Positions 17,089 through 28,750 of a DNA stretch of 64,000 nucleotides are shown here, in pieces. Source of the stretch: Dictyophora rubrovolvata (Eukaryota > Basidiomycota > Agaricomycetes > Phallales > Phallaceae); the NCBI GenBank assembly GCA_029959195.1, contig CP114120.1, forward strand, positions 558,001-622,000. The letters run 5' to 3'. A program made the position numbers and the translations under genes. Every line of letters begins with the position of its first letter. The first letter of the stretch is position 1. A model generated the notes under the pieces. That model did no database searches. It was not told the origin of the DNA and saw nothing but the letters and a program-made list of their open reading frames with translations.

Positions 17089-19104
17089 ATGGTTACCAAA
17101 GGCGAGACAAAGTATACAGAAATTGTCTGTATTGGCCTCGGGTTTTCTGGAATCTGCCTTGGTGTCCAGCTGAAACGAGCACTTGGGTTTGACGATATCC
17201 ATTTTTATGACCGCAATCCCTCTGTTGCTGGAACCTGGTATGCCAATCAATATCCAGGTTAGTTTTTTTTTTAATTTTAATTTTTCATTCGTCAACTAAC
17301 CGCCGCTCAATAGGAGTTGCATGGTGAATTGTAGCCCCTTTTAAAATGTTATTCAATACTCTTACGCACTTGAAGTGACATCCATGCTGGCTTATACTCG
17401 CTTTCGTTCGAACCGAACATGGAATGGACACGAGGCCTAACGAGAGGGGAAGAAATCAAAGATTACCTTGACCGTGTTGTCGAGAAGTACAACCTCCGTC
17501 CAAAAATGACATTCTCAGTCGAATGGCTGTCCGCTACATGGGATGAAACCCGACAAATATGGAGTGTCGAACTCAAAGACCTAAAGGAGGACAGGAAATT
17601 TATCCACGAATGTCGTATCCTCTATTCAGCCGTCGGACAGCTTGTAGTTCCCAAACCGGCCGACATTCCTGGCATATCGACGTTCAAAGGCGAGATTTTC
17701 CATACCGCGCGTTGGAAAAAGGATGTTAGTCTGAAAGACAAGGACGTGATTATCATTGGAAATGGGTGTAAAAAGAATTTCTGCCATGTTCAAAAGCCAT
17801 TTACTCATAATATTTATGTAGGTTCCGCCTCTCAAGTCGTCCCTTGCATCGTGGACGAAACAAAATCGTTGACCCAGTTTTTCCGGTCTGCACAGTGGAT
17901 GTTTCCTGGCGGTGATCAGCCGGTTTCATCGGAATTCCGATGGTGCCTTAAAAACTTTCCTCTAGCAAACCGACTACTGCGCTTATATATCTATTTTAAT
18001 ACTGAGATATTCGGGGAAATGGTGCAATTGACAAAAAAAGGTGCAAAAATTCGAGAGGAATGGGAGGCCATTTCGAAACAGTACATTCTGAGTACCGCTC
18101 CTGAGAAGTATCGTTCTATCTTGGTCCCAGACTATCAATTAGGCTGTAAAGTATGTCTTTGATTGTTCAAAGAAGGGCTTTGTTCTGAGAATATTACTTT
18201 TCCGTCAGAGACGAATCTTTGATAGAGATAGCGGTTATATGGCAGCCTTACATTCCTCCAACATGTTTCTTACAAAAGATCCTATTCAAGAGATCGTCCC
18301 CGAAGGTGTGTCAACTGCAGACAAGGTCTATCCCGCCGACGTCATAATTCTCGCAAACGGATTCGAAACGGGGCTTAGTGGTCTAAATACTGTGGACGTA
18401 TACGGTCGTGGTGGTCAGTCTTTACATGAATATTGGAAGAAATTTGGTGGACCCATGGCGTATAACTGCACCGCTGTTTCTAACTGTAAGTAATTCATAA
18501 CACCCTCTACTAGTTTTTTTGTCCCGAGACGTATTTGATATGTATAGTCCCGAACTTTTTCTTGCTATTCGGTCCAAACACGGCCACGGGACATACCAGT
18601 CTTATCATCGCCATAGAAAACACGGTTAATTACACATTGAAGATTATTAAACCCATTTTAAACCGCAAAGCGCTCTCCGTCGACGTTAAAAAAGGCGCCA
18701 TGGAAGTTTACGGTAAACAACTGCAAGCTGCCTCGCGCAATACCGTGTTAAATTCATGCCGAAGCGTGCGTTCTGTTTTTTTTTTTTTGGGTTTCTGCTC
18801 AATAATGTATTGGCGCAATAATCCTTCTAGTTCTATGTCGTAGATGGCTGGAATAGTACCATATATCCCTGGTCCCAATTTCATTTCTGGTGGAGATCCG
18901 TTTTTCCCCGCCGGAACGATTGGACATATACCGTAAGCCATTCATAGCTGGGGATTCGTATAGATTAATAATTTTCTCTTTGTCGTAAAGTATAATCCGA
19001 AATCTACTCAATTTAAGAAGATTCTGTTTGGAGTCGGTCTGATCTTCCTGTCCACGGTCTATTTTAATCGCCATCTTATCCCGACTGTTAAGGAAGTTGT
19101 TTAA
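17089..19104 (+). CDS. Baeyer-Villiger-type flavin-containing monooxygenase
   Basis: Eight exons (17089-17257, 17314-17323, 17376-17767, 17822-18150, 18209-18485, 18548-18765, 18831-18932, 19018-19104) sum to 1584 nt, or 527 residues. The FAD Rossmann motif is GLGFSG, followed by GTWYANQYPGVACDIHAGLYSLSFEPN. The Baeyer-Villiger fingerprint F-x-G-x3-H-x3-W is met by FKGEIFHTARW. The NADPH-binding motif is GNGCSASQ, then PDYQLGCKRRIFD, VILANGFET and FFLLFGPNTATGHTS. Known relatives use NADPH and O2 to turn ketones into esters or lactones. A 10-nt microexon supplies VAC of YPGVACD. The C-terminus (KKILFGVGLIFLSTVYF) is hydrophobic and could be a tail anchor, which is inference. Natural substrate unknown. 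Confidence 0.92.
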
Positions 19105-22150: not shown

Positions 22151-23464
22151 TCACCAATGCAACTTGTGAGTACGGCAATGGTAGCCATTCGGATTCTTGA
22201 GCAGATACTGTTGCTGACTAGCCGATGATTCGCGCCACGATCCGGCAGTTTCAATCCTTGTAACAATCTTCTGTCCCTTTGGATCAAAATGTTTGGCTTG
22301 AACTTCCGCAGAGACACGTCGAGCTATTTGGACTTGTTCATCCGAGAAGGTGAAGATGGCTGAACGGTATTCTTTGCCTTGATCGTTGCCTTGGTGGTTT
22401 AACATTGTGGGATCATGGAAGCGGTAGAAGAATTCTAGACCATGGTAACGTAAGAACCGGAGCGTCTTTCCAGATTGTGTCAACTTACCGACTAGCTCGG
22501 CATAGCTGATAATAGAAGGATCAAACACCACGCGACAGGCTTCAGCAGATCCTTTGCCTTTGGTGGTGTTGTTTGATGGATTTGTGACATCTTCAACACC
22601 TTCAATGATTCCAACAGAGGTGGCGATTATGCCCTTGTTTTCTTTTGTAGGGTATTGCTAAAGAAGGGAAACACAAGTGAAGGTTAGACAACGTTGGTGC
22701 GGAAAGGAGGCTGGTTTTGACGTACCTTCAAAAACATGTACTCTGTTCCCCAGAAACCTGTGTAGACAAATGTAAGATCAACATTCGATATTGATGACTA
22801 TGGCGAGAACTTACATCCAGCGCCGAAGATGGCAACTTGAGGTTCTGTCGACGAAACTTGAGCCGTCTCCTCATGAGATAAGAGTGAACTGGATTTCACC
22901 TGGTTTTTTCATCATGTCGGTTGACATGTCCGAGGCCATATTTTTCATATCATTCGACATGGCTGCACTCTTGTCCATGGACATATCCATTCCCATGCTG
23001 TCTTTCATCATATTATCCTTCATGTCCATATTGTCTTTCTTCATCATGCTGCTTTCCATTGCCATGTCATCTTTCTTCATCATACCGTTCTCCATTGCCG
23101 TATCGTCTTTTTTCATCATCATATCATCCTTCATTCCCATGGCTTCATTCATTCCATCTTTCATCATTCCGCTAGACATGGCGTCCTTCATTGGCATCGC
23201 ACCATCTTGACCTTTGGCCATGGTACTGTTGCCCTCCATCATCATGCCATCTTTAGACGACATCATCGACATGTCCTTGCCAGACATATCAGAAGACATA
23301 TCAGACGACGTCATGCCATCCGACTTCGGAGCCGTAGACATGGACATATCATCCATCATCGTCTCTTTCTTGGCCATGGCCATGCCATCTCCCATGTCCT
23401 TGCTGGAGTGTTTGGAGTGCCTCAAGTGAAACGACGATTTGATAGACTTGAGCTTGCTGAGCAT
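22151..23464 (-). CDS. Methionine-rich domain fused to peptide methionine sulfoxide reductase A
   Basis: Exons 22900-23464, 22815-22856, 22726-22757, 22489-22657 and 22151-22434 sum to 1092 nt, or 363 residues. The C-terminal half is MsrA, which reduces Met-S-sulfoxide in proteins: GAGCFWGTE with the catalytic Cys, EACRVVFDPSIISYAELV, EFFYRFHDPTMLN, YRSAIFTFSDEQ and NPNGYHCRTHKLHW. The N-terminal ~188 residues are about one quarter methionine, with Lys, Asp, Ser and Gly, and probably disordered. The two halves are joined by a phase-compatible 43-nt GT-AG intron (22857-22899). The MsrA frame has no in-frame ATG of its own before a stop, which supports one transcript. The basic N-terminus (MLSKLKSIKSSFHLRHSK) could be a mitochondrial presequence. 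Whether the Met-rich part is a redox sink, sensor or metal ligand is unknown. Confidence 0.82.
23021..23128 (-). repeat. Three tandem 36-bp coding repeats in the Met-rich domain
   Basis: Imperfect 36-bp units at 23021-23056, 23057-23092 and 23093-23128. On the minus strand each encodes a 12-residue unit of the type MMKKDDxAME. Neighbouring sequence is similarly biased but less regular, which suggests growth by slippage or unequal crossing-over. Confidence 0.75.
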
Positions 23465-25269
23465 TGTAAAATAAACGTTGAAGAATGAAAGTCCAATGAG
23501 TTGAGTGAATAGGGACGAGGGTAAGATGTCGAAATACAAAACTGAATTAGATCGAGAAGAGTAAAGTTAAATAAGCCAACAATTAAGAGACACTTGGATA
23601 GAAAGGAAAGAAAACAAAACGCTAAGCTGATGACTGGAACTAGTCAACCTCGAAGGTTTTTAAACGCGAGATACATCAAATGACGTGCTTACAGTGCATC
23701 ATCATCCTGCTAAACAACGGAAACTGAGGCTGCGGTAAAGCGGTGTAGATAATCAAGAGAAAACTATAGAAATGGTTGTCGATTGATGGGGTCAATCCTC
23801 TCCTGTCCAGGCCAGTCTGGTTGTCCGAGCTCGGAGCAATTGGTCATGCTAAGGGTTGATCTCCTACGCAACTTCGGGAAATGCAACCCACTTGTGAATT
23901 TGATATTGTTATCCTCCGAAAGGTCCGAGTTTGTCCATTATAATCCAATTGAACCTTTATACTGGAGCGTAGCTTGTCCCTGCCGAGCTAGGGCATGCAC
24001 AGGCTGTCATGTAGATCTCAGACTGATTGGACTTATCAAATATCCTTAGGTTTTAAGCTGCGCAACGCTTTCGAGGAATGATTGGCACGATACATCCCCC
24101 GAGCATGGATCAGAACGATTGTGGATACAGTAGCAAAATCCAAGAGTGTGACCGACGTGATGTATCCGATTACCCCGCCTCAGCTGCATGACTTTTTACC
24201 TGGATGTTCACAATGTTCACCACTACGATAATTAATCCAGTAAACTCAGTTTCTGGAATTGGTCATACATGAACTTTGCTTGCTTTTAGATTCTGCCTCT
24301 GTAATCTGAGCATCAAGATAACGCATCGAATGGCCAAGGTCCTCTCTCCATTTTCAGTTTTTGAGGATCTAAGTTGGTAACTTATGGGAAAATATAAGCA
24401 GCTATGGATCAAGGAAACGGCACACCGAAAAGTGAACGCCCACGACTGACGAGATCATGAACACCATAAAAAAAACTTGCGCAAACGCAACAACTGAGAT
24501 TATGCAGACTATCGGTCAAACCAATTTTGTGTGGAGATATATATATATATAAGCTGGAGTAAACCGGCAAACAGTGCTTGTCGCAACCTTGATCGCACAA
24601 AGTTATAGTTACCACAACGCTTTTTCAAATGGAGATTTCGGTGAGAATCAAAGCGATCTCGAAGCCAGGACTACCGCGCTAACGTGGAACTCGCACATTT
24701 GAAAGGCATCACGTTAGTGCCGCATCGTTCGATGAATTTGAACCATATAGTCACCTCAAGTGAAGGACGGAGGTTGTGAAGCACCGAGGATCCAACTTCT
24801 ACAGATACCAAATTGCAAGGTGAAGGTAGAGTACACATGAACTGTAAATTTATTCTTGTTATGTGGCTTTATTGAATGATTCAGGGTAGTAAGCAATGCA
24901 TCTCAGCTCAATACGTATTCAATCGGCTTCCACCACCAAACAATACTGGTGAGTGTTTTTCCCGTAAAAATACAAAAGATATCCTGATGTGCTATGAAAA
25001 AATGGTTACAGTTTGATGTATTATAACTAGAGCTAAACACCGGACCTCATTTACACGTGGACATAGAGCTTCTTTTAAGAAGATTGACTTCCGTTATTCT
25101 CGCATGAAGCATAGACAATTGTGCCAGATAAAGTACAATTGAAAAAGTGCCATGCGGAAAATAATATGTAGGATCTGTGAGCGGGTGGTCGTTTGTCTAT
25201 TCGGATCTTTCATGGTGCGACGTTAGCTTATCTAGGAATTGAGCTCTATTGACTGAGACCTGCGCACAA
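23465..25269. other. Intergenic region (1.8 kb)
   Basis: Promoter side of the Met-rich MsrA gene and upstream region of the carboxypeptidase gene. It contains an (AT)7 microsatellite at 24537-24550. The plus-strand frame near 23783-24049 shows no recognisable similarity. Confidence 0.4.
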
Positions 25270-27884: not shown

Positions 27885-28750
27885 TTAGCCTGGTGCGTGA
27901 TGCACAAGCCCTCTCTCTTTAGCAATACAATTAATCCTATTCGTGAGCTCATCCCTGTTATTTCTGTGTTCTTCGTGTTCATCGAATCTCCTATGCGTTT
28001 CGCGAATATGTCCTGAGGGCTTGAATGTACGGTTGTACTTTGTCAATACAGTGGACAAAGCGACAGAGAGAGTCAAAGAGATACTGATAAACCATACGCC
28101 AGCAAGCCAAGGATTCATGGGAGGTTGGGCAGACGACCTGAAATTCTTCCAAACCATTGATTTCTCCAGTAAGGATTCATCTATCGGAGGCAGGTATGAG
28201 AATTCCTCCTGATGTCTTTGAATTATTTCTGAAAGGAGGGCTTTGGATACTTGATTGTAATTTGAGCGTGATTTTTGATATGTATAAGCGGAAAACATTG
28301 CAAGTACGACTGAGAAGAGAACTGCCTGAAATGATGCAGTTAGACCGGTTCGTCTCTGGGAATAGTTGAAAGCCTACAATTAGGAAAAGAAAGTCTGTGG
28401 AGTCTCTCCAACCTTTTACGTTGGCTAAGACGTATCGTCTCGCTTTATGAATGTGAACTGTTGGATCATGCGGGTTATCTACGACTGCCCGTCTCGAGAT
28501 TACTTCCGGATATAACAGTTCGTACTCGCGCTGGTTATAAGCTATGATGGATTGAGCAGTAAGCCATATGTAGAATACGTGCATCTATTGACTTACGGGC
28601 ATAGGAACCAGTTCGCTCTGGCGATAATGATTTGTTCAAGGTGAGTCTTCGGCCTCTCTTCGTTGGACCATTGACAGGTACGTCGTCATACGAAGGCGGC
28701 CGATTCGGATCTGAAATTTTCGCATTGTTCGGAGTGACCTTATTCTGCAT
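27885..28750 (-). CDS. Short DUF6535-type membrane protein
   Basis: Exons 28597-28750, 28378-28541 and 27885-28355 sum to 789 nt, or 262 residues. After a disordered Pro-rich N-terminus come GWRDSTDFLFLIRRTGLTASFQAVLFSVVLAMFSAYTY and a second hydrophobic pair, PWLAGVWFISISLTLSVALSTVLTK. These match the first two helices of the DUF6535 domain. The family normally continues with KQWL...RQFRYEGL and two more helices. Here the frame instead runs into a charged, coil-like tail (GHIRETHRRFDEHEEHRNN) and stops. It is either a natural short form or a 3'-truncated copy. Function unknown. Confidence 0.7.

Follow-up and report, generated by a model that had tools for sequence, protein, structure and literature searches.

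Can a methionine-rich protein and the enzyme that repairs its oxidized residues be encoded by a single gene? The question is raised by a locus of the basidiomycete Dictyophora rubrovolvata that is read on the reverse strand from position 23464 to position 22151 of the window, i.e. the whole stretch of 64,000 nt analyzed here (contig CP114120.1, positions 558,001 to 622,000). A preliminary description of this DNA had proposed that an N-terminal region with about 50 Met is joined at this locus to the methionine-repair enzyme MsrA. Judged from the gene structure and from a comparison with a paralog in the same genome, the fusion is very probably real. What the fused protein would do is weighed after the evidence on its two parts.

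Gene structure and the intron plan shared with a paralog

All five exons lie on the reverse strand, and the spliced frame is open through all of them. Exon 1 (22900-23464) begins with an ATG at 23464 and encodes the methionine-rich domain in 188 codons plus one nucleotide, with 50 Met, which bears out the N-terminal frame as it was originally read. It is followed by intron 1 (22845-22899 in the preferred model; 55 nt, phase 1, CAG/GTGAAA ... GACAG) and by exon 2 (22815-22844; 30 nt), which carries PQVAIFGAG and the first base of the catalytic Cys codon. Intron 2 (22758-22814; 57 nt, phase 1) splits that codon, as it does in the paralog, and exon 3 (22726-22757; 32 nt) supplies the remainder of the Cys codon together with FWGTEYMFLK. 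Beyond intron 3 (22658-22725; 68 nt, phase 0), exon 4 (22489-22657; 169 nt) encodes the middle of MsrA, where the Tyr of the NPxY motif (the Tyr82 equivalent) and the His of GHAE are lost and the Glu equivalent to Glu94 is kept. Intron 4 (22435-22488; 54 nt, phase 1, GTAAGT ... TCTAG) was missing from the gene model first put forward; its counterpart in the paralog sits at the corresponding position and agrees in phase. Exon 5 (22151-22434; 284 nt) encodes the end of MsrA, with GND, EYRS, a replaced AExYH, a C-terminal GYHC and the stop. Once spliced, the MsrA with GCFWGTE that had been recognized on the same strand as the Met-rich frame matches Pfam family PF01625 (peptide-methionine (S)-S-oxide reductase) with 140.9 bits (cut-off 23.7) over profile positions 2-152 of 153, and MsrA is the sole Pfam family that passes its cut-off in the fusion chain.

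A scan of the genome (28.2 Mb in 11 contigs) found at least two MsrA places, the fusion and a paralog (L001, 2407-1477, on contig C2, with MsrA matches at 2547630-2548126), and at least one MsrB gene, seen as three adjacent exon matches on contig C8. Both MsrA and MsrB are reported from almost all Basidiomycota studied, in an article whose main text does not use the term “methionine-rich” (PMC10512322). The paralog is an ordinary protein of 228 aa with a first exon of 56 codons that is not Met-rich, and the first exons of the two genes do not align. Downstream, intron phases are 1, 1, 0 and 1 in both genes, in the same order, and exons 2-5 measure 27, 32, 175 and 284 nt in the paralog vs 30, 32, 169 and 284 nt in the fusion. 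Under the 55-nt model, intron 1 of the fusion has the same phase as its counterpart, and the distances of the two introns to the catalytic Cys are equal within one codon. This agreement of all four introns in order and phase indicates that the plan probably predates the duplication, and the ancestral gene is best read as having had a coding exon ahead of the MsrA body, joined to it by a phase-1 splice.

The two parts had initially been linked by a 43-nt GT-AG intron, which does keep the frame, but an intron of 55 nt fits better. From the donor of intron 1 at 22899, three acceptors preserve the frame: 22857 (43 nt, AAG, a protein of 363 aa), 22845 (55 nt, CAG, 359 aa) and 22836 (64 nt, AAG, 356 aa). 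We consider 22845 more likely than 22857 because it is the sole YAG among the three, and YAG ends all seven other introns of the gene and its paralog; because those seven introns are 54-71 nt long, a range that takes in 55 nt, and also 64 nt, but not 43 nt; and because exon 2 then comes close in length to exon 2 of the paralog. The intron 1 donor, GTGAAA, is the weakest of the set, the remaining seven donors of the two genes all being GTNNGT; a donor-motif scan over 264 kb gave no usable signal (GTRNGT, 72 vs 57.8 expected; GTGAAA, 18 vs 10.2). If intron 1 were kept in the transcript, translation would reach a stop after 197 aa (window 22899-22871, reverse strand) and yield a Met-rich protein without MsrA, and the weak donor could possibly serve a regulated choice between the two products.

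The same stop in the unspliced exon 1 frame would suit an arrangement of two genes, in which a Met-rich protein ends inside intron 1 and MsrA begins from another exon, and 46 one-intron models with an intron of 151-1000 nt can indeed be drawn. A GTRNG donor with a YAG acceptor occurs in just three of the 46, however, and individual inspection was confined to these: two run through the Met frame, whereas the third would start with a one-codon exon followed by a 303-nt intron. The paralog, too, has a phase-1 intron ahead of its MsrA body, which also speaks against separate genes, and we regard this arrangement as improbable. The MsrA frame has no ATG of its own ahead of a stop, as had been noted before: no intronless model reaches the catalytic Cys, and all eight one-intron GT-AG models of 40-150 nt that reach it use the ATG at 23464 and hence the Met frame. 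One polypeptide with both parts is thus well supported by the intron plan common to the paralog together with the enumeration of gene models.

The methionine-rich domain

Residues 23-188 of exon 1 comprise 49 Met, 32 D+E, 21 K+R and 12 Ala and contain no I, L, V, F, W, Y or C, so that Met is at once the sole bulky hydrophobic and the sole readily oxidized residue in this region. The densest 60 residues hold 21 Met. In the 335 other stop-to-stop frames of the window with 60 codons or more, the count per 60 residues never exceeds eight, and in 1099 such frames from a genome sample of 20 stretches of 10 kb it never exceeds 11. This Met density is far from chance. The Met-rich part includes tandem repeats of 36-bp units (2.6 copies) and 12-bp units (2.3 copies), both lengths being divisible by three. 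The codons used for Asp, Lys, Ser and Gly are mixed; this suggests, though it is no proof, that what has been maintained is the protein and not a DNA repeat. The domain is probably disordered. Its first 22 codons (23399-23464, reverse strand) are basic, with six K/R, three His and no acidic residue, and from this composition a mitochondrial presequence is possible; the start of the paralog has a similar helical moment (0.51 vs 0.50).

Because ATG reads CAT on the opposite strand, a run of Met codons has a His-rich mirror, and such a frame lies opposite the exon (22925-23488, forward strand). An antisense artefact was considered and rejected, since the His-rich frame contains no Met and hence no ATG. 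Where internal repeats differ in a codon, the change is synonymous in 13 of 62 codon pairs when read on the Met strand vs 5 of 62 on the opposite strand, the pairs overlapping one another, and this excess would argue weakly against an antisense artefact as well.

Relatives of the Met-rich exon were sought in searches whose low-complexity filtering may hide matches: at E <= 10 the genome yielded no further copy, and there was no confirmed relative among 26 pattern matches in prokaryote genome contigs and no relative in plasmids. Against the PDB, the exon gave two insignificant matches (best E 0.28). With only the MsrA parts of the pair as query, 122 pattern matches in viral contigs included no confirmed relative. 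Among 23 bacterial MsrA loci, the region before the Cys has at most four Met per 60 residues, in open N-terminal stretches that are often short (12-154 residues). Exon 1 contains five overlapping MxKD and did not match penta_MxKDx (TIGR02953) at E <= 10, in a search where HMMER filters may drop weak low-complexity matches. One locus, L006, was tried as a TIGR02953 relative and rejected: its score of 33 bits is below the cut-off, it contains three stops, and it has no stretch of 10 Met in 60 residues. A different locus, L028, holds from 5523 on the forward strand a 106-codon candidate frame with up to 11 Met per 60 residues. No described Met-rich/MsrA fusion was found among titles and the beginnings of abstracts, which cover the literature in part.

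Conserved and altered residues of the MsrA domain

The MsrA of this chain had been called complete, and this is half right: the match extends over the whole domain and the catalytic Cys is in place, but 10 of 36 near-invariant positions differ. Kept are GCFWG with the catalytic Cys, the Phe and Trp, the Glu that acts as acid catalyst in MsrA, the Asp of GND, the Tyr of EY and the C-terminal Cys. This Tyr of EY is the second of the two Tyr that matter for catalysis, presumably the residue numbered Tyr134, and lies where EYRS of the fusion aligns with QYRS. In these features the domain resembles other members of PF01625; it differs from them in lacking the Tyr82 equivalent, the Tyr of VGY, the His of GHAE and AExYH, and in carrying an extension of 188 Met-rich residues. 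At the Tyr82 equivalent (NPxY) the fusion has a gap, and Tyr occupies this position in 22 of 22 outgroup rows and in the paralog. The literature numbers this residue Tyr82 or Tyr103, and it was placed by means of a mutagenesis primer given in PMC5334523. For the Neisseria enzyme, Cys51 is reported as the nucleophile, Glu94 as the acid catalyst and “Tyr82 or Tyr134” as the proton donor (PMC6210582). Since the two Tyr are named there as alternative donors, loss of the Tyr82 equivalent does not by itself exclude activity, and with the Cys, the Glu and the second Tyr retained an active fusion MsrA is still plausible on sequence grounds.

As a control from bacteria, stretches of the paralog, WWPAEEYH among them, were used to retrieve 24 MsrA loci. 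Twenty-three of the 24 were parsed, L046 being excluded because its frame as read contains no CxW. L048 entered the count of Met content but not the alignment, which thus has 22 outgroup rows. Across the 36 columns that are near-invariant in these rows (at least 90%), the fusion departs at 10 and the paralog at one, a comparison affected by the leaning of the set toward the paralog with which it was gathered. The departures of the fusion are the Tyr of VGY, a Gly, the Tyr of NPxY, a Val, the His of GHAE, one Leu, and the Ala, Glu, Tyr and His of AExYH; the departing Leu is common to fusion and paralog. Yeast MsrA (in the 3pil alignment) is likewise without the His of GHAE and the Gly after VGYx. 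In a smaller set built on 10 of the 24 loci, with 43 conserved columns and the paralog counted in, the fusion departs at nine columns and the paralog at one.

The two fungal MsrA copies are sisters in the tree (support 100/99). The end branch of the fusion, which was flagged as a long row of unsure placement, measures 0.79 and that of the paralog 0.12. A 12-row tree gave 0.65 vs 0.082, and the branch of the fusion is 6-8 times longer than that of the paralog. Between the two MsrA domains dN is 0.27 and dS 1.73 (LWL85), the latter a rough value with NG86 saturated, and the pairwise dN/dS pools both lineages. That dN is well below dS points to purifying selection overall; the MsrA domain seems to have changed fast yet not freely.

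Possible functions of the fused protein

We tentatively read the gene as a duplicated MsrA that has specialized on its own Met-rich tail and works as an oxidant sink, with MsrB needed in trans, and would put the chance of this somewhat short of even. A self-regenerating sink had been among the first suggestions for this locus and it is still the best functional reading, qualified by the need of the R form for MsrB and by the divergence of the MsrA domain. After duplication of MsrA, the exon that precedes the phase-1 intron common to both genes would have come to encode a charged Met-rich domain, and the enzyme domain would have specialized on the domain attached to it. Expressed and correctly spliced, the gene would yield a protein, possibly located in mitochondria, whose Met-only tail is struck by oxidants (H2O2, hypohalous acids) in place of other proteins. 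The tethered MsrA would act in cis and turn S-sulfoxides back to Met, with thioredoxin recharging it via the C-terminal Cys, and R-sulfoxides would be cleared by the separate MsrB of the genome. MsrA is established as acting on the S-sulfoxide only (PMC8394241), and the R form would therefore depend on that separate MsrB gene. Tethering would lower the need for tight binding, so that residues on the substrate side might loosen while the catalytic core stays.

By analogy, the fusion may follow the same logic as a bacterial system in two pieces. MXKDX peptides of the MrpX/BcrX type are described as paired with MsrPQ (YedYZ), and so combine a Met-rich peptide with a Met-sulfoxide reductase, and MrpX-type Met-rich peptides with Msr systems are reported as sacrificial sinks in trans (PMC8315932, PMC4623255). 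MrpX and BcrX are bacterial and separate periplasmic proteins that work with MsrPQ/YedYZ, whereas a single fungal chain with a thiol MsrA is predicted here. MsrA/MsrB fusions such as MsrAB of Helicobacter pylori likewise place MsrA inside a larger chain, but the partner reported there is a second repair enzyme (PMC8000184) and here it is a substrate-like tail. A fast-changing, pattern-breaking MsrA beside a slow and ordinary paralog would offer an example of an enzyme that may be adapting to a substrate attached to it. To our knowledge, Met as a renewable antioxidant has mostly been studied with substrate and enzyme separate; a gene that naturally joins a Met-only domain to its repair enzyme, if true, would provide a clean, genetically encoded test of this idea, in a single gene with one catalytic Cys to mutate and one tail to delete.

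Other readings overlap with the sink and with one another, and their odds need not sum to one. In an unlikely but serious alternative, the protein would sense oxidants rather than scavenge them in bulk: oxidation of the Met-rich domain would alter its interactions or its condensation, and the attached MsrA would reset this redox switch. Droplets of TDP-43 and of yeast ataxin-2 (Pbp1) are reported to melt on Met oxidation and to re-form on MetO reduction (PMC8394241), and the domain described here is Met-rich and of low complexity, as are the reversibly oxidized domains of those proteins. TDP-43 and ataxin-2 are RNA-binding proteins on which Msr enzymes act in trans; in the fusion, by contrast, no RNA- or DNA-binding partner domain was recognized, only MsrA passing a Pfam cut-off, and residues 23-188 are without aromatics.

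Divergence at otherwise fixed positions means that activity of the MsrA domain is not certain, and the departures from near-invariant columns, taken with the long branch, would also fit a loss of activity. The enzyme may then be degenerate, a pseudoenzyme attached to a Met-rich part that alone matters and is perhaps also made on its own by retention of intron 1; the weak donor and the stop after 197 aa would fit this. We consider this quite unlikely, as the frame is open over five exons, the catalytic Cys, the Glu and the C-terminal Cys have been kept, and dN lies well under dS.

Work by Lim from 2011, cited in PMC6162775 and PMC5334523, reportedly identified MsrA as a stereospecific Met oxidase. 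A reading marginally less probable than loss of activity is that the diverged MsrA catalyzes an H2O2-dependent oxidation of the tail it carries, besides or instead of repair. The protein would then be a peroxidase of a new kind, whose peroxidatic substrate is the Met-only tail; MsrA would both steer and reverse the oxidation of this tail, with H2O2 turnover paid for by thioredoxin. In favor of this reading, a Met-oxidase activity of MsrA is in print (PMC5334523), and rat MsrA with Tyr103Ala, a change at the Tyr lost in the fusion, is reported to have had 74 ± 6% of the peroxidase activity left in a dimethyl sulfide radical-scavenging assay (PMC5334523); a changed reaction would also fit the fast evolution of the domain. 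In the same rat study, however, Tyr103 is reported to aid the oxidase reaction (PMC5334523). The two reactions are, moreover, indistinguishable by sequence.

Least favored, and very improbable in our estimation, is the earlier suggestion of a Cu(I)-binding Met-rich module with MsrA attached as protection: Met-rich copper-binding proteins exist, and exon 1 holds 12 overlapping MxM and 11 overlapping MM, but it has no Cys, its three His are confined to residues 1-22, the absence of I, L, V, F, W and Y from residues 23-188 makes a membrane segment unlikely there, and MxMxxM, which we take to define the CTR-type copper-binding Met motif when it occurs in a membrane protein, is found zero times.

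Two further frames of the window gave matches, one to DUF6535 (27885-28373, reverse strand; 38.5 bits) and one to an FMO-like flavin monooxygenase (17374-18162, forward strand; 24.2 bits). The DUF6535 match, like the rDNA and the abundance of short introns, is in keeping with a basidiomycete. Elsewhere in the genome, a third 5.8S/ITS copy (L012) lies on contig C2 at 2622909-2623063 and scores 151.5 bits, vs 157.7 for the two copies on contig C8. By eye, this copy runs into unrelated sequence beside the 18S part, and it may be a decayed rDNA fragment.
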